Assembly: GCA_028723085.1 (NCBI GenBank)
Contig: JAQYFP010000078.1
Span: 1 to 32,890, forward strand
Source of the DNA: Erysipelotrichaceae bacterium
GTDB lineage: Bacteria; Bacillota_I; Bacilli_A; Erysipelotrichales; Erysipelotrichaceae
DNA length: 32,890 nucleotides
Reading direction: 5' to 3'
Part shown: piece after piece, positions 185 through 6,732 of the stretch
Layout: each line of letters opens with the position of its first letter
How positions within the stretch are numbered: the stretch's first letter is position 1
Made by a program: the position numbers and the translations under genes
Notes under the pieces: model-generated
Database searches by the model: none
Told to the model about the DNA's origin: nothing
The model's input: only the letters and a program-made list of their open reading frames with translations

Positions 185-1351
185 ATGAAACCACAATTAA
201 AGATTACACAAACAGTACAAAATCGTAAATTCAATCGCAAAAGAGATACGTTTAATCATATACTTACGATGAATCAAAGTGAACTTTCTTATTATTTGAA
301 ACAAACAAGTTATCAAAATCCGTATTTGATATTTGATTCCAATTCTGAAGTATTTGAAGCTTTAAATCAAAGTGCTCCTAAATTGATTGATGAAATCTTA
401 TTTCAAGTGCATACGCATCCCTTTGATATTGAAGATGATTTAATTGCGTATTTAATATCAAAATTGAATTCTAATGGTTATTTCAAAGAAAACTTAGAAG
501 AAATCATTAATAAATGTTTATTTTCTAAAGAAGACATTATAAATGCGATTAATGTATTACAGACATTGGAACCTATAGGTTGTTTTTGTTTCGATTTGAA
601 AGAATCACTTAAAGTACAATGTGAAATGTCTCAAGAAGCAGAAAGTGAAACAGCATATTTGTTATGTGATTATCTAGAAGAAATTGCCTATAATAAAATT
701 AAAGATATTGAACAAGCACTTAATCTTCCTTTTGATGAAATCATGGAAGGCATTCGTTTTCTAAGACAATTGAATCCTAAACCTGCAAGTAACTATGCCA
801 CAACATCCATTGTGTTAAATCCGGAAGTAAAAATTAGTGTTGAAGATGATACTTTAAAAATAGAGTTATTGAAACAAGATTTTTCACTTTCTTTATTGGA
901 ACAAAATAGTAATAATGAATTATATAATCAGGCAAGTGAAATTATTGCGTGTGTGAATTCACGAAATCAAACGTTATTAAATATTATGCGGGTAGTATGT
1001 CAAATTCAAAAAGAACACTTTTTATTTAATAAACCACTTAAACCATGTACACTTTCACAAGTTTCTAAAACAATGGATTGTCATGTATCAACCATTTCAA
1101 GAGCAATCATGACCAAATCCTTTGAATTTAATCATCGTTATTATCCAATTCGTTCTTTATTTGTTCGTAGTGAACAAGAACTCGTGAAAGATAAAATAAA
1201 AGAGTTGATTGAAAACGAAGATAAGATGAAACCATTGAGTGATGCCAAAATACAATCTTTATTGGAACAAGATCATATTAAAGTTTCAAGAAGAGTTGTC
1301 ACAAAATATAGAGAACAATGTAAGATTCCATCTTACTTAAATAGAAGGTAA
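185..1351 (+). CDS. rpoN: RNA polymerase sigma-54 factor (RpoN), short form
   Basis: Sigma-54 directs RNA polymerase to -24/-12 promoters and needs an AAA+ activator. The N-terminus resembles region I. The core-binding region covers roughly residues 50-260 and an HTH follows near 300-330. The RpoN box, SRRVVTKYRE at residues 368-377, reads the -24 element. I start at ATG 185 (388 aa); the open frame extends back to a TTG at 125, but that runs through the terminator at 140-165. At 388 aa it is shorter than the usual 430-480, with few Gln in region I and no evident acidic region II. It shares an operon with an EIIB and a LevR-type activator, so it may serve mainly this PTS. Confidence 0.93.
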   Translation: MKPQLKITQTVQNRKFNRKRDTFNHILTMNQSELSYYLKQTSYQNPYLIFDSNSEVFEALNQSAPKLIDEILFQVHTHPFDIEDDLIAYLISKLNSNGYFKENLEEIINKCLFSKEDIINAINVLQTLEPIGCFCFDLKESLKVQCEMSQEAESETAYLLCDYLEEIAYNKIKDIEQALNLPFDEIMEGIRFLRQLNPKPASNYATTSIVLNPEVKISVEDDTLKIELLKQDFSLSLLEQNSNNELYNQASEIIACVNSRNQTLLNIMRVVCQIQKEHFLFNKPLKPCTLSQVSKTMDCHVSTISRAIMTKSFEFNHRYYPIRSLFVRSEQELVKDKIKELIENEDKMKPLSDAKIQSLLEQDHIKVSRRVVTKYREQCKIPSYLNRR

Positions 1352-1356
1352 AGAAA

Positions 1357-1860
1357 ATGAATGAGAAAATAAAATTAATTCGTGTTGATAATCGTTTAGT
1401 TCATGGCCAAGTAGGAATGACTTGGACAAGTTTTATTAATATTAATCGTATTGTTGTAGTCAATGATGAAACAATGCAGAATGGGATGGCTAAAAAATTG
1501 ATGTCATCGATTGCTAAGGCTGCTAATGTTCACATTGATTTCACGTCTTTAAAAGGATTTCCTGAATTGTTAGGAGAATACAGTGAACATGAAAAAATAT
1601 TTGTGATTGTCAAAACCATTCATGATGTGCGTGTTTTATTAGAGGAATTAGATGGTAAGGTCAAAGTTAATATTGGTAATATTCATTATGAAAGAGGTCG
1701 CATTCAATTTAATAAGAAAATGTATTTAACACTTGAAGATATTGAAGATTTGATTGTTTTATTAAAACAAGGAAATGATATTTTTTATCAAGATGTTCCA
1801 GGGACTTCTATTGAAAAAATTGAAATGTATAAATTATTAAGAATGAAAAGGGAGATGTAG
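1357..1860 (+). CDS. Mannose/sorbose-family PTS EIIB, regulatory-operon copy
   Basis: This 167-aa protein has the mannose-family EIIB signature RVDNRLVHGQV near its N-terminus. His16 is the predicted phosphorylation site. The gene lies 5 nt after rpoN and 2 nt before the levR-type gene, away from its transport partners. It is a clear paralogue of the EIIB at 4660-5127. Its place between sigma factor and activator suggests a signalling role, passing phosphorylation state to the activator. Something similar is described for EIIB-Mpo and ManR of Listeria. It could equally serve a transporter whose other subunits are elsewhere. Family assignment is firm; the signalling role is inference. Confidence 0.9.
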   Translation: MNEKIKLIRVDNRLVHGQVGMTWTSFININRIVVVNDETMQNGMAKKLMSSIAKAANVHIDFTSLKGFPELLGEYSEHEKIFVIVKTIHDVRVLLEELDGKVKVNIGNIHYERGRIQFNKKMYLTLEDIEDLIVLLKQGNDIFYQDVPGTSIEKIEMYKLLRMKREM

Positions 1861-1862
1861 AA

Positions 1863-4580
1863 ATGGATTTAAAAGAGAGTTTATTGTTGGAATTGGAAAA
1901 AAGAACCAGAGAACATGAGCTAAAAGAAAATGATTTATTTACGGCATCTTCTTTGGCTTCTTTTTTTAAGATGGGTAGAAATACCATTTCACAATATTTA
2001 AACGATTACGTGAAAAATGAAAAAGTTATTAAAGTAAATACCCGTCCAGTTTATTTTTTTCATAAACAAGCACTAGAAGAAAAATATGAAACTAATTTTA
2101 ATGATTGTATATACGATTCTATCGCGAGTTTAAAAATATTGATGATGAAAGACTTTGAAAAAATGATTGGCTACAATGGATCATTAAAAAGTGTAATTAC
2201 GCATTGTAAAGCAGCTATGTCTTATCCAGATAATGGTCTTCCTATTTTAATTTGTGGACCTACGGGAACAGGGAAAAGCATGATTGCCAGTTTAATGTAT
2301 GAATACGCTAGTCATCAAGGCATTCTTAAAAAAGATGCCAAATTTATTTCTGTGAATTGTTCAGAATACGCAGATAATCCAGAATTATTAGTGGATAACT
2401 TATTTGGACATGTCAAAGGAGCTTATACAGGAGCAGATGAAGACCAGGTTGGTTTGATTCAACTTGCCAATGGTGGTGTCTTGTTTTTAGATGAGGTTCA
2501 TTGTTTAAAAGCCGAATGTCAAGAAAAGTTATTTTTATTTATGGATAAAGGGATATTTCATCGTTTAGGAGACAATGAAAAATGGTATCAATCGAATTGT
2601 CGTTTAATCTTTGCGACAACGGAAAACCCAGATCAAGTATTGGTTCACACTTTACTAAGAAGAATTCCGATTGTGGTTCATATTCCTTCTTTAAGTGAAC
2701 GTCCGCAAATTGAAAAAATGGAACTCATTTATACGATGTTGATGAAAGAAAGCTTAAATCTAAATAAGAGTCTTTGTATCTCAAACTATGCGTATAAAAC
2801 GATTTTAAGTTATGACTATAAAGGCAATATTGGTCAACTTCAGAATGTGATTAAGGCAAGTTGTGCGCGAACATTCTTGCATGAAAATAAAGATAATTAT
2901 TGTATTCGTTTATTGGATTTACCGGATTATATGTTTGAATCCATGGATACTAATATTTTAAAGAACTTTGATCAAAATGAAAAAATTGTATCGGTTTTAG
3001 ATTTGAATAAGGAAATTAAATCGGATTCACCTTTAATGGATTTATACGATAATTTATTGAATACGTTTAAGTTATTGGAAAAAGAAGAAGAGACATTGGA
3101 ACAAATTATTGAGCGGTGTAAATTATTGATTCAGAATTTTTTCGATTGGTTATTCTTTAAGAAAAAGAATAGTTTTAAGAGTTCCAATGAAAATTATTTA
3201 TTAAAGATGTTGGATAAAATTTGTTCAATCATCATGAATAAATATTCTTTCACAATGCCCAATACCCAAATAAAAATTTATTCCAAGGTATTTGTGGAAT
3301 ACACTAAGATTGTAACAGATGCACAAATGTGGTATTCCTTCCATGAAGAAGAAGTACAACGGATTTTATCACTGTTACAGGAACAATATCCTCGTGATTA
3401 CTTAATTGCCAATGAATTATTAGAAAATGCGTGTTTAAACTTAGATATTAAAATGGATAAGTTTATGGATGTGATTATGACCATTGAAATGATTAAGACC
3501 CAGAAAGAAGAAAAAGAAAATGTGATGGGCTTAATTTTATGTCATGGATATTCTACAGCAAGTAGTATTGCCGATACTGTGAATCAATTGTTGGGGGAAC
3601 ATATTTTTGATGGAATTGATATGGAATTAAAGATTTCCATTGACCGCATTGCCCAATTAGTGGATGACTATCTTCAACATAAGGAACCTATTCAAGAATT
3701 GATGATTTTAGTAGATATGGGAAGCTTAGAAGGAATTTATAAGCGAATTCGTCTTCCTAAGTGTAATATTGGTATTATTGATATGGTTTCTACTCCAGTT
3801 GCCTTGGAAGTCGGAAATCATATCCAACAAGGACATCTTGTCAAAGATATATTAGAAGAAATAAAGAATAATTTTAATATTTCGACGCGTTTAATTGAAG
3901 AGGCCAAGAAACAAGATGCCATCTTAACTATTTGTGCAACCGGAATTGGGGTTGCCAAAAAGATTAGTGTATTATTAACGAATTCACTTCCAAAACCCAT
4001 TCCGGCTAAGATTATTCCATATGATTATCATTCCATTGTTGAAAATGGAGTAAATGATTCTATTTATTCACAATATAATGTTTTGATGCTTGTAGGAACT
4101 TTAGATCCTAAAGTTGAGGGAACTCCTTTTTTACCACTTGAAAATTTAATTGATAACGATCAAATTCAAGTTCTTGTGGATTATGTTGGCCAATATTTTA
4201 ATGAAGAAGAATTAAGTAAATTTAGACAAAATGTGATGAAAAACTTTGCGCTTTCGAATATTGTGAATCATCTAACGATTTTAAATGCTCAAAAAGTAAT
4301 TGATGATGTAGAAGAATTTGTATTAGAAGCACAAAGATTATTGGATAAGAATATGGATTCAACATCACGATTAGGTTTATATGTGCATGTGGCTTGTTTG
4401 ATTGAAAGATTGATGTTGAAACAAGGAATTGATGAAGTAGAGGGAATGGAAACGTATTCGCTTGAAAATAAGGAACAAATGGATTTGATTCGACAAGCAT
4501 TTAGTGGCGTACAGGAACATTATAGTGTCGAATTACCGGATCCTGAAATCATGTATATCTTAAATTATTTCCAAGAATAG
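1863..4580 (+). CDS. levR: LevR/ManR-type sigma-54 activator with PRD and PTS domains
   Basis: A 905-aa activator. An N-terminal winged HTH covers about residues 20-75. The AAA+ domain (about 95-335) has Walker A GPTGTGKS near 131, the sigma-54-contacting GAYTGA loop at 186-191 and Walker B LFLDE near 208. A first PRD-like region follows (about 430-545). A mannose-type EIIA-like domain has its His in the CHGYSTA motif near 561. An EIIB(Gat)-like domain has its Cys in ICATGIG near 690. The C-terminal PRD is about 800-905, with a conserved His in LYVHVACLIERL. This is the LevR domain order, in which PTS phosphorylation sets activity. The likely target is the sigma-54 promoter right after its stop codon. 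Confidence 0.93.
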   Translation: MDLKESLLLELEKRTREHELKENDLFTASSLASFFKMGRNTISQYLNDYVKNEKVIKVNTRPVYFFHKQALEEKYETNFNDCIYDSIASLKILMMKDFEKMIGYNGSLKSVITHCKAAMSYPDNGLPILICGPTGTGKSMIASLMYEYASHQGILKKDAKFISVNCSEYADNPELLVDNLFGHVKGAYTGADEDQVGLIQLANGGVLFLDEVHCLKAECQEKLFLFMDKGIFHRLGDNEKWYQSNCRLIFATTENPDQVLVHTLLRRIPIVVHIPSLSERPQIEKMELIYTMLMKESLNLNKSLCISNYAYKTILSYDYKGNIGQLQNVIKASCARTFLHENKDNYCIRLLDLPDYMFESMDTNILKNFDQNEKIVSVLDLNKEIKSDSPLMDLYDNLLNTFKLLEKEEETLEQIIERCKLLIQNFFDWLFFKKKNSFKSSNENYLLKMLDKICSIIMNKYSFTMPNTQIKIYSKVFVEYTKIVTDAQMWYSFHEEEVQRILSLLQEQYPRDYLIANELLENACLNLDIKMDKFMDVIMTIEMIKTQKEEKENVMGLILCHGYSTASSIADTVNQLLGEHIFDGIDMELKISIDRIAQLVDDYLQHKEPIQELMILVDMGSLEGIYKRIRLPKCNIGIIDMVSTPVALEVGNHIQQGHLVKDILEEIKNNFNISTRLIEEAKKQDAILTICATGIGVAKKISVLLTNSLPKPIPAKIIPYDYHSIVENGVNDSIYSQYNVLMLVGTLDPKVEGTPFLPLENLIDNDQIQVLVDYVGQYFNEEELSKFRQNVMKNFALSNIVNHLTILNAQKVIDDVEEFVLEAQRLLDKNMDSTSRLGLYVHVACLIERLMLKQGIDEVEGMETYSLENKEQMDLIRQAFSGVQEHYSVELPDPEIMYILNYFQE

Positions 4581-4587
4581 CGTATTT

Positions 4588-4618
4588 ATCGTGTTCGCCA
4601 ATAGCGGGCACGATTTTT
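4588..4618 (+). terminator. levR terminator overlapping a sigma-54 promoter
   Basis: An 11-bp stem (4588-4598 with 4604-4614, two G-U pairs) and a CAATA loop are followed by TTTTT at 4614-4618. The right arm contains the -24 element of the next operon, and the T run is part of the -24/-12 spacer. Confidence 0.7.
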
Positions 4619-4621
4619 GCT
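4607..4621 (+). promoter_or_regulatory. Sigma-54 (-24/-12) promoter of the PTS operon
   Basis: GGCACG-ATTT-TTGCT matches the consensus TGGCACG-N4-TTGCW. The invariant GG (4607-4608) and GC (4619-4620) have the exact 10-nt spacing. Only the first T of the -24 box differs. Transcription should start near 4632, leaving a short leader with AAGGAGAG before ATG 4660. The LevR enhancer site was not identified. Confidence 0.85.
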
Positions 4622-4659
4622 GTAATAATAGGTGAAAAGAGAAAGGAGAGACAAATCTT

Positions 4660-5127
4660 ATGCCCAATATTTTATTAACACGAATTGATAATCGTTTGGT
4701 TCATGGTCAAGTTGGTGTAACTTGGACAACAACCATTGGAGCAAATTTATTATTGGTTGCCAATGATGAAACAGCCAATGATCCGCTTCAACAAAAATTA
4801 ATGGCTGTAACAGCTAAATCAAGTGGTGTAGGAATTCGTTTTTTCACAATTGAAAAAACAGCAGCTATCATAAGTAAAGCTGCCCCAAGTCAAAAAATCT
4901 TTATTATTTGTAAGACACCTAGTGATGTTAGACGTCTAGTAGAAGCTGGTGTTCCTATCAAAAATGTCAATGTAGGAAACATGCATTTTTCAGAAGGAAA
5001 ACGTCAATTAACAGCGAAGGTGTATGTAGACGATAAAGATATGGAAGATCTACATTATTTGGCTAGTCAAGGAATTGAAGTGTATGCACAAGATGTTCCT
5101 GGTGACATAAAAACAATGATTGATTAA
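4660..5127 (+). CDS. Mannose/sorbose-family PTS EIIB, transport copy
   Basis: This 155-aa cytoplasmic EIIB transfers phosphate from EIIA to the incoming sugar. The RIDNRLVHGQV motif puts the active-site His at residue 15. It is first in the sigma-54-driven operon, 17 nt before the EIIC gene, with a good Shine-Dalgarno (AAGGAGAG). No stand-alone EIIA occurs in the operon or the window. The only mannose-type EIIA-like domain seen is inside the regulator. The phosphate donor must therefore be encoded elsewhere, unless the regulator domain serves, which is unlikely. The substrate (mannose, fructose, glucose, sorbose or an amino sugar) cannot be told from sequence. Confidence 0.93.
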   Translation: MPNILLTRIDNRLVHGQVGVTWTTTIGANLLLVANDETANDPLQQKLMAVTAKSSGVGIRFFTIEKTAAIISKAAPSQKIFIICKTPSDVRRLVEAGVPIKNVNVGNMHFSEGKRQLTAKVYVDDKDMEDLHYLASQGIEVYAQDVPGDIKTMID

Positions 5128-5144: not shown

Positions 5145-5945
5145 ATGGAAATCACATTATTTCAAGGTTTATTACTTGCGATTATGGCGATAATCGTGGG
5201 TCTTGATTTCTTTTTGGAAGCCTTCTTCTTATTTCGTCCGTTAATTGTTTCAACTTTAACAGGATTGATTTTAGGTGACTTGACTTTAGGATTGAAAGTT
5301 GGGGCCCTAATTGAATTGGCTTTCGCAGGTTTAACACCAGCTGGTGGTACACAGCCACCTAACCCGGTTATGGCTGGTTTGATGGGAACGGTATTAGCTT
5401 ATACAACTGGTTGTACACCAGAACAAGCATTGGCTTTATCTTTACCATTTTCATTTTTAGGACAATATATTATTTTATTCTACTATTCAGCATTCTCATT
5501 CTTTATGGGAAAAGCGGATAAAGCAGCTCAAGAAGCAGATACAACTACCATTCGTAATATCAACTTATTATGTATGTTGATTGTATCTGTTACATATGGA
5601 GTGCTTGCGTTCTTATGTTCATACGTTGCCCAAGGTCCTATGCAAGCCTTTGTTGAATGGTTACCTGCTGTTATTACACATGGACTTGAAGTTGCCGGTG
5701 GTATTTTACCAGCTGTTGGATTTGGTATGTTGTTAAGAGTTATGATGAAAGGAAAATATATTCCTTATTTCATCGCTGGATTCTTAATGGCATGTTATTG
5801 TGAAATGTCAAACTTATTACCAGTTGCTTTACTTGGATTAGTATTCGCTTTAATTGATTACTTTGGAGCTAAACAAAGACAAGAAGAAATCAAAGCAGCT
5901 ATGGAAGAAGGATCTTTAGGAGGTGGACAGGATGTCGGAATCTAA
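5145..5945 (+). CDS. Mannose-family PTS EIIC membrane component
   Basis: A 266-aa polytopic membrane protein of the sorbose/mannose EIIC family. It carries the family pattern of hydrophobic segments and the GxTPAGGTQPPNPVMAG region near residues 62-80. With EIID it forms the sugar-translocating channel. AAGGAGAG precedes the ATG. The 3' end overlaps the EIID start by 14 bp, implying translational coupling. Confidence 0.92.
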   Translation: MEITLFQGLLLAIMAIIVGLDFFLEAFFLFRPLIVSTLTGLILGDLTLGLKVGALIELAFAGLTPAGGTQPPNPVMAGLMGTVLAYTTGCTPEQALALSLPFSFLGQYIILFYYSAFSFFMGKADKAAQEADTTTIRNINLLCMLIVSVTYGVLAFLCSYVAQGPMQAFVEWLPAVITHGLEVAGGILPAVGFGMLLRVMMKGKYIPYFIAGFLMACYCEMSNLLPVALLGLVFALIDYFGAKQRQEEIKAAMEEGSLGGGQDVGI

Positions 5946-6732
5946 TAAAAAACTAACTTCAAAAGATATTACGATGCTTGGAATTCGTTCATCATTCCTA
6001 CAAGCGTCATTTAACTATGAACGTATGCAATCATGTGGATTCACATGGGCTATGTTACCGGCTCTAGAAAAAATTTATGGAGACGATAAAGAAAAATTAA
6101 GTGCAGCAATGCAAGATAACATGGGATTCATCAATACCCATCCAAACTTAGTTGGATTCTTAATGGGATTAATGGTTTCCTTAGAAGAAGGAGGAGCACC
6201 AAGAGAAACAGTTAATGGATTAAAATTAGCGTTATTTGGTCCAATTGCTGGTATTGGAGATGCTATTTTCTGGTTTACTTTATTACCAATTATTGCTGGG
6301 ATTTCTTGTTCCTTTGCCTCACAAGGATCAATTATTGGTCCAATCTTATTCTTTGCGTGCTACTTTGTGATTTGGGTTTTACGTATTGTATGGACTAAAT
6401 TAGGATATACATTAGGAACGAAATCAATTGATATGATTACAGAAAACTCTGATATCATTGCCAATGCCGCTACTATTTTAGGTATTACTGTTATTGGTGC
6501 TTTAATCGCAACATATGTATCAATTAACTTATTACCTGTTATTACCGTAGATGGTGGAATTGAAGTTGCTGTACAATCACAATTCTTTGATATGATTTTC
6601 CCTAACATTTTACCAATGTTAGTAACACTATTGTTCTTCTACTTATTGAAGAAAAAACAAGTGAGCCCAATTGTTTTAATTGTTGGTGTCATCATCGTTT
6701 CGATTCTTTGTTCTTGGATCGGATTATTGTAA
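5932..6732 (+). CDS. Mannose-family PTS EIID membrane component
   Basis: A 266-aa EIID subunit that partners EIIC in the mannose-type permease. Its long cytoplasmic N-terminus includes the typical SFLQASFNYERMQ segment. A GPIAGIGDAIFW motif and C-terminal membrane helices follow. I take ATG 5932 because AGGAGG sits 8 nt upstream; an in-frame GTG at 5923 would overlap that site. It is the last gene of the sigma-54 operon and is followed by a bidirectional terminator. Confidence 0.93.
   Translation: MSESNKKLTSKDITMLGIRSSFLQASFNYERMQSCGFTWAMLPALEKIYGDDKEKLSAAMQDNMGFINTHPNLVGFLMGLMVSLEEGGAPRETVNGLKLALFGPIAGIGDAIFWFTLLPIIAGISCSFASQGSIIGPILFFACYFVIWVLRIVWTKLGYTLGTKSIDMITENSDIIANAATILGITVIGALIATYVSINLLPVITVDGGIEVAVQSQFFDMIFPNILPMLVTLLFFYLLKKKQVSPIVLIVGVIIVSILCSWIGLL

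Follow-up and report, generated by a model that had tools for sequence, protein, structure and literature searches.

Fusion of a predicted sigma-54 promoter and a predicted terminator hairpin at levR-PTS junctions of Erysipelotrichaceae

The window, the whole stretch of 32,890 nucleotides from an Erysipelotrichaceae bacterium that we analysed, holds a gene cluster in which rpoN (encoding sigma-54), an extra EIIB-like gene and levR are followed, on the same strand and 3' of levR, by EIIB, EIIC and EIID genes of the mannose/galactosamine PTS family (Table 1). The rpoN product scored 250 bits against TIGR02395, below the model cut-off of 277; rpoN and a sigma-54 activator gene are both present in this one cluster, which is what a sigma-54 promoter requires at the level of the genome. 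The levR product combines an AAA+ sigma-54 interaction domain with PRD and EIIA-man domains, which places it in the LevR family, and its sequence contains the GAYTGA loop. Its nearest NCBIfam model, the DagR equivalog NF047795, gave 467.9 bits where the cut-off is 1400, and we therefore name it LevR-like only. EIIB, EIIC and EIID all exceeded the cut-offs of the NCBIfam equivalogs of the galactosamine type (Aga), which makes galactosamine the predicted substrate; the EIID frame is counted from its first possible start, and the ATG at 5932 may be the true one. The PTS operon downstream of levR has no EIIA gene. The EIIB-like protein encoded between rpoN and levR may phosphorylate LevR.

Table 1. 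Features of the levR-PTS cluster in the window, and the stem variant of Enterococcus (coordinates of the named stretches)
Feature	Position	Strand	Basis
rpoN (sigma-54), first gene of the cluster	185..1351	+	Pfam Sigma54_DBD and Sigma54_CBD; ATG start at 185
EIIB-like gene, extra, between rpoN and levR	1357..1860	+	PTSIIB_sorb, 128 bits
levR, LevR-family sigma-54 activator	1863..4580	+	Pfam Sigma54_activat (AAA+), EIIA-man, PRD
Left arm of hairpin, ATCGTGTTCGC	4588..4598	+	fold; covaries with the -24 box in relatives
Hairpin loop, CAATA	4599..4603	+	sequence
Right arm of hairpin, GCGGGCACGAT, holding the -24 element	4604..4614	+	fold, sequence
Sigma-54 promoter, GGGCACGATTTTTGCT (-24 GG, -12 GC)	4606..4621	+	consensus match
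T run: putative levR terminator U tract and sigma-54 promoter spacer	4614..4618	+	sequence
Predicted PTS transcript start	4632	+	inferred, about 12 nt after the -12 element, uncertain by 1-2 nt
Ribosome-binding site of the first PTS gene, GAAAGGAGAGAC	4641..4652	+	sequence
PTS EIIB, galactosamine type	4660..5127	+	NF007288, 274.6 bits (cut-off 180)
PTS EIIC	5145..5945	+	NF007289, 388 bits (cut-off 300)
PTS EIID	5923..6732	+	NF007359, 423 bits (cut-off 400)
Enterococcus stem variant	L134:5714-5750; L169:5273-5308		sequence reading

Between levR and the EIIB gene lie 79 nt. A hairpin begins at the eighth base past the levR stop codon; it has 11 bp with 6 G-C pairs, TTTTGC directly 3' of the stem, and the tail TTTTGCTGTA after the right arm. 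This hairpin is the minimum-free-energy hairpin of the junction (86-nt stretch, -24.1 kcal/mol, z = -3.44, equalled in 1 of 200 shuffles), and it scored positive (25.6) as an intrinsic terminator by a formula known from the literature, which we applied before and over promoters throughout. Comparison with the sigma-54 consensus TGGCACG-N4-TTGCW shows that GGGCACGATTTTTGCT has the invariant GG and GC at the fixed spacing and differs by one base, in the first position, where G replaces T (GGGCACG), a substitution unique among the 39 first sites described below. The promoter is rare in its surroundings: GGCACGNNNNTTGCW occurs exactly once in the window, at 4607-4621, and is found in 0 of 100 shuffles, and the sole exact match in the window to GGCACGN4TTGCW is again this promoter (0 of 100 shuffles). 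Across the whole 1.89-Mb genome, GGCAYN5TTGCW has 8 matches, compared to 4 for the reversed control, and these 8 include a copy downstream of each of two levR genes. When the 40 nt ahead of the promoter were shuffled and the promoter itself was left unchanged, none of 200 sequences paired the -24 box as well as the window junction does. A sequence-only reading had described the 11-bp stem at 4588-4614 with the -24 box in its right arm, and had taken the T run for the -24/-12 spacer of a sigma-54 promoter; both descriptions hold in fold and sequence. The T run is short, with 5 T counting the last paired base, which is normal for the class of elements described next and weak for a terminator. 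An upstream activating sequence for LevR would have to fall inside the levR coding region.

We searched for levR homologues in 60 relatives and 315 genomes of the order, some of them drafts, scanned named genomes in addition, and fetched 40 more stretches. After removal of loci without the levR 3' end, loci with less than 150 nt beyond levR, and exact junction copies, 82 loci were kept, of which 39 have a sigma-54 site at most 200 nt downstream (first sites). A site was called fused when at least 4 of the 5 GGCAC bases are paired as a right arm, the fold is at most -9 kcal/mol, and at least 4 T precede the GC, limits that were chosen after a first look at the junctions. By this definition 26 of the 39 first sites are fused, their independence being limited by shared ancestry, compared to 4.25 hairpins expected when the upstream 40 nt are shuffled; with similar junctions joined, the count is 23 of 34. 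None of 15 later or more distant sites and none of 9 divergent sites are fused (Fisher p = 2.6 × 10-8 vs. first sites); for these 24 sites 0.56 hairpins were expected by shuffling. The difference persists among sites with a T run (26/28 first sites vs. 0/7 others, p = 5 × 10-6). First sites divide into 26 with hairpin and T run, none with the hairpin only, 2 with the T run only, and 11 with neither, so that a T run is found in 26/26 fused vs. 2/13 non-fused first sites. T-run spacers also commonly occur without a hairpin in these bacteria, as at 6 of 9 divergent sites, which indicates that the T run is a promoter style and the left arm an addition next to levR. Longicatena caecimuris (L032) offers the clearest single control: the 16 bases TGGCACGCTTTTTGCT occur there twice in identical form, once upstream of the divergent rpoN, where no hairpin is present, and once downstream of levR, where a hairpin is.

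The other 43 levR loci have no sigma-54 site in the 200 nt past the gene, and 11 of these were read in detail. In four (L012, L055, L057 and L065), a separate hairpin terminator is accompanied by a promoter that departs from the consensus by one base or one step of spacing; in L067 the hairpin is fused and the -12 element damaged, and L050 has a separate terminator with no sigma-54 site; the only sigma-54 site of L031 lies at +434, L064 is masked just past levR, and nothing relevant was seen in L054, L074 and L092. Among sites in the order found by motif only (30 loci, with no row for L114), the fused form occurred only at levR junctions already counted, L115, L116, L119 and L127. A covariance model of the element, run over 309 genomes, returned 9 matches at E ≤ 0.001, all of them levR junctions of the training set, and missed the window itself; few candidates were scored at the first look, and the scan says little on other contexts.

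Comparison of fused and non-fused first sites shows that the two exchange with one another. Terminator scores were positive for 25 of the 26 fused elements (the exception, L046, scored below zero), and a second, separate terminator was detected by this scoring in none of the 26 fused junctions. In contrast, a separate terminator precedes the promoter in 11 of the 13 non-fused junctions by script and in a twelfth, L058 (site at +148), by eye (Fisher p = 3 × 10-9 with L058 counted). The remaining one, L038, a sister to the clade of the window, has neither a fused nor a separate terminator. Thus a fused or a separate terminator is present at every one of the 39 junctions but one, as could be expected if the same need, a stop before the promoter, is met in two ways. 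Junctions with separate terminators (L004, L005, L006, L052, L059 and others) resemble that of the window in genes, promoter class and position after levR, but have a conventional hairpin and T run ahead of the promoter and a spacer that is not a T run. Both forms occur in the source genome, where the window junction is fused and the terminator is separate at a second levR (contig 8, L059). At least 5 changes between the two states are needed on the LevR tree. The distance from stop codon to box has a median of 32 nt in fused vs. 51 nt in non-fused junctions, and in L061 the left arm is still part of the levR coding region, at its end. In L010, whose sisters L007, L009 and L011 are fused, the first 27 nt directly after the levR stop contain CGTGCC-TTATT-GGCACG-TTTTCTTTTT, and two consensus promoters lie further downstream of this hairpin, which looks like half of a fused element that has lost its -12.

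Several related arrangements were seen in passing. In L009, positions 4159-4493 downstream of levR comprise five head-to-tail units of 67 nt (96% matches), which are also found in L007, with one unit in L011; each unit combines a sigma-54 promoter with a dyad-like stretch, which is AGATTAAGCGTAACTAATCT in the first units, giving, after one fused promoter, six promoters ahead of one PTS operon, and two units of L009 have TTTCT as their -12. In L007, L010 and L032, rpoN, which was recognised by eye, is immediately preceded by a consensus sigma-54 promoter, divergent from levR; this position suggests that sigma-54 may autoregulate together with LevR. In the window, positions 140-185 hold a hairpin with a seven-T tail, then directly TGGTACACT, similar to an extended -10, and then the rpoN start codon, which is possibly another terminator running into a promoter.

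We further examined the pairing between the arms in an alignment of 28 fused elements, the 26 of the order and two plasmid ones. Of 244 cells, 98.8% are paired, a percentage inflated by the choice of rows that fold; the unselected comparison is that of the fused counts with the shuffle expectation given above. When the partners are slid by 1-3 columns, pairing falls to 31-70%. Double changes affect five of the ten stem pairs, with 22 double-change cells vs. 3.6 after shuffling (reached in 0 of 500 shuffles). The left arm tracks the box where the promoter has GGCACA, GGCAT or GGCGC: CGTG accompanies GGCACG, TGTG accompanies GGCACA, CATG accompanies GGCATG, and GCGC accompanies GGCGC. In an exchange test, which is less affected by selection of rows than the paired percentage, arms with their own box folded at a mean of -15.2 kcal/mol, compared to -11.0 kcal/mol with boxes that differ, and none of 20,000 permutations reached the own-arm pairing sum, also when three similar loci were left out. 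The 26 fused elements of the order have loops of 3-12 nt and T runs of 4-6 T. G-U pairs are common, with an excess at the GG of the -24 box (21/49 pairs vs. 0/20, p = 3 × 10-4), although several of the sequences are related by descent and this position is closer to the loop; the excess might reflect avoidance of a decoy -24 on the opposite strand, and we draw no conclusion from it. We also rejected an antisense sigma-54 promoter within the left arm: read by eye, the best palindromes show the -24 box again on their minus strand, with no -12 after it.

Class- and phylum-level genome draws gave no match beyond the order. Other orders were sampled via plasmid records only, from which 17 stretches were fetched and 12 co-directional levR-PTS junctions were read (nine with near-identical ones counted once). 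The fused form is present in plasmid records of Liquorilactobacillus hordei (L135) and Lactiplantibacillus plantarum (L139). A second form of the same idea, a stem that spans both the -24 and the -12 with a T run after it, is seen in Enterococcus raffinosus (L134, L173) and on an E. faecium plasmid (L169). The terminator is separate in L138, L140, and the two near-identical loci of Enterococcus sp. DA9 (L137, L171), unlike in the window, and L170 has no sigma-54 site. In Klebsiella (L172, L174), a LevR-type gene and its PTS operon are separated by a strong hairpin that covers the -24 element and has no T run. Of all the results, this one speaks most against reading the element as a plain terminator. 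E. coli genomes gave no match when searched with the junction of Klebsiella.

The arrangement of genes has known counterparts. In Bacillus subtilis, levR lies directly upstream of levDEFG, a sigma-54-dependent operon of the mannose PTS family. Promoters inside or beside terminators have been reported in transcriptome studies, where one stretch serves the 3' end of one transcript and the 5' end of the next, as the fused element would; unlike these general overlaps, the fused element is exact to the -24 and -12, covaries, and recurs at one regulator-target junction. In Enterococcus faecalis, mptR encodes a LevR-family activator directly upstream of the sigma-54-dependent mannose-family operon mpt, and the window is like both systems in gene order, activator family and the intervening sigma-54 promoter; unlike for the window, the consulted portions of the mptR-mpt descriptions mention no terminator or hairpin at the promoter (PMC2941500, PMC8262876). 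The same holds for the consulted parts of the wider literature, which describe gene arrangement and promoters with no terminator or hairpin at them (PMC3162934, PMC6615313, PMC12316311, PMC10864463, PMC2941500, PMC7438776, PMC8262876). The promoter listed for Clostridioides difficile CD3280-CD3279, TTGGCATACTTTTTGCTTT, has a T run, as would be expected if it were fused, and is a candidate for this form (PMC7438776, Table 4). In these portions and in searches of the literature we found no prior description of the fused element; an older remark in the original lev operon papers on B. subtilis or L. casei is possible.

Chance, or an AT-rich promoter style in which common T-run spacers meet random hairpins, could be expected to yield some fused sites, and T-run spacers without a hairpin do exist at divergent sites. 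This explanation is extremely improbable and was rejected, as the fused form greatly exceeds its shuffle expectation, both in the window (0/200) and among first sites (26 vs. 4.25), is restricted to the first site after levR (0/24 in other contexts), and has arms that covary with the box. Alternatively, the dyad could be an operator, such that a repressor or nucleoid protein bound to a palindrome over the -24 would block the sigma-54 polymerase. The overlap of the dyad with the -24 box fits this, as does Klebsiella, which keeps the dyad without a T run. However, the spacing of the arms is variable, the arms covary with the local box such that no single constant word emerges, the many G-U pairs would be mismatches in DNA, and divergent and tandem promoters of the same activators have no dyad. 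Variable loops and G-U pairs fit an RNA hairpin and not a protein dyad of fixed spacing, and we rejected the operator as very improbable. The hairpin might also mainly stabilise the 3' end of the levR mRNA, or act as a weak attenuator whose partial read-through provides basal PTS mRNA, as the short U tract, the negative terminator score of the fused L046 and the missing T run of Klebsiella would allow; the exchange with conventional terminators at the same place fits a role in termination, and we regard this option as unlikely by a wide measure.

The sequence-only reading had held that the same bases are the terminator of levR and the promoter of the PTS operon, and had proposed an alignment of the junction in relatives. 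The comparison of relatives, with the fused form at two-thirds of the first sites (26/39) and covarying arms, supports it: dual use predicts joint conservation of hairpin and promoter, accompanied by compensating changes and confined to levR-PTS junctions, and this is what was found, also outside the order. It is very likely that one DNA segment serves, as RNA, as the intrinsic terminator of levR and, as DNA, as the LevR/sigma-54 promoter of the PTS operon. The hairpin, the promoter match, their co-conservation, the compensatory changes and the exchange with separate terminators are observed directly; from them, termination, initiation and a benefit in insulating the PTS operon from levR read-through appear probable. 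Against dual use stand the short T runs (4-6 T), the 13 of 39 junctions that are not fused, L038 with neither form, Klebsiella without a T run, and the window promoter without the consensus T.

Under the dual-use reading, the 34 bases at 4588-4621 would be one element with two readings. As RNA polymerase ends levR, the nascent RNA would fold into the 11-bp hairpin and the U run would release the transcript; as duplex DNA, the right arm and T run would form the -24, spacer and -12 bound by the sigma-54 polymerase, which, when LevR is active, would start the EIIB-EIIC-EIID mRNA about 12 nt past the -12, the usual distance for sigma-54 transcripts. The most likely end of the levR RNA is the T run (4614-4619), and the start of the PTS RNA would be near 4632; with the levR RNA ending before 4620, the two transcripts would not overlap, and the PTS mRNA would lack the hairpin. 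With its G+C-rich box and the T-rich spacer after it, the sigma-54 consensus already supplies the right half of a terminator, and a complementary left arm is all that has to be added. As sigma-54 promoters are silent without their activator, levR read-through would be the main leak into the PTS operon, and we propose that a stop inside the promoter removes it.

A further suggestion, which we consider rather unlikely, is that the fusion is a switch coupling activator supply and target readiness at one site. The closed-complex sigma-54 polymerase would occupy the place where the levR elongation complex forms its hairpin, such that a poised promoter would alter levR termination as a roadblock, and levR transcription would evict the poised polymerase. 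If this were true, the sigma-54 class, whose consensus amounts to half a terminator, would be the only class of promoters predisposed to such coupling.

In practice, the fused element could serve as a marker for LevR-PTS pairs in unannotated genomes, and it is a caution for predictors that handle promoters and terminators as separate objects. Returning to dual use, the same bases would be under two unrelated constraints, RNA folding and sigma-54 recognition, both revealed by the compensatory changes, which makes the junction a compact, testable case, and the consensus itself suggests that sigma-54 promoters are pre-adapted as the right half of a terminator. Taken together, the comparisons indicate that the fused junction is a recurrent design in gut Erysipelotrichaceae and in some lactobacilli and enterococci, in which both readings appear to have been kept together in evolution.
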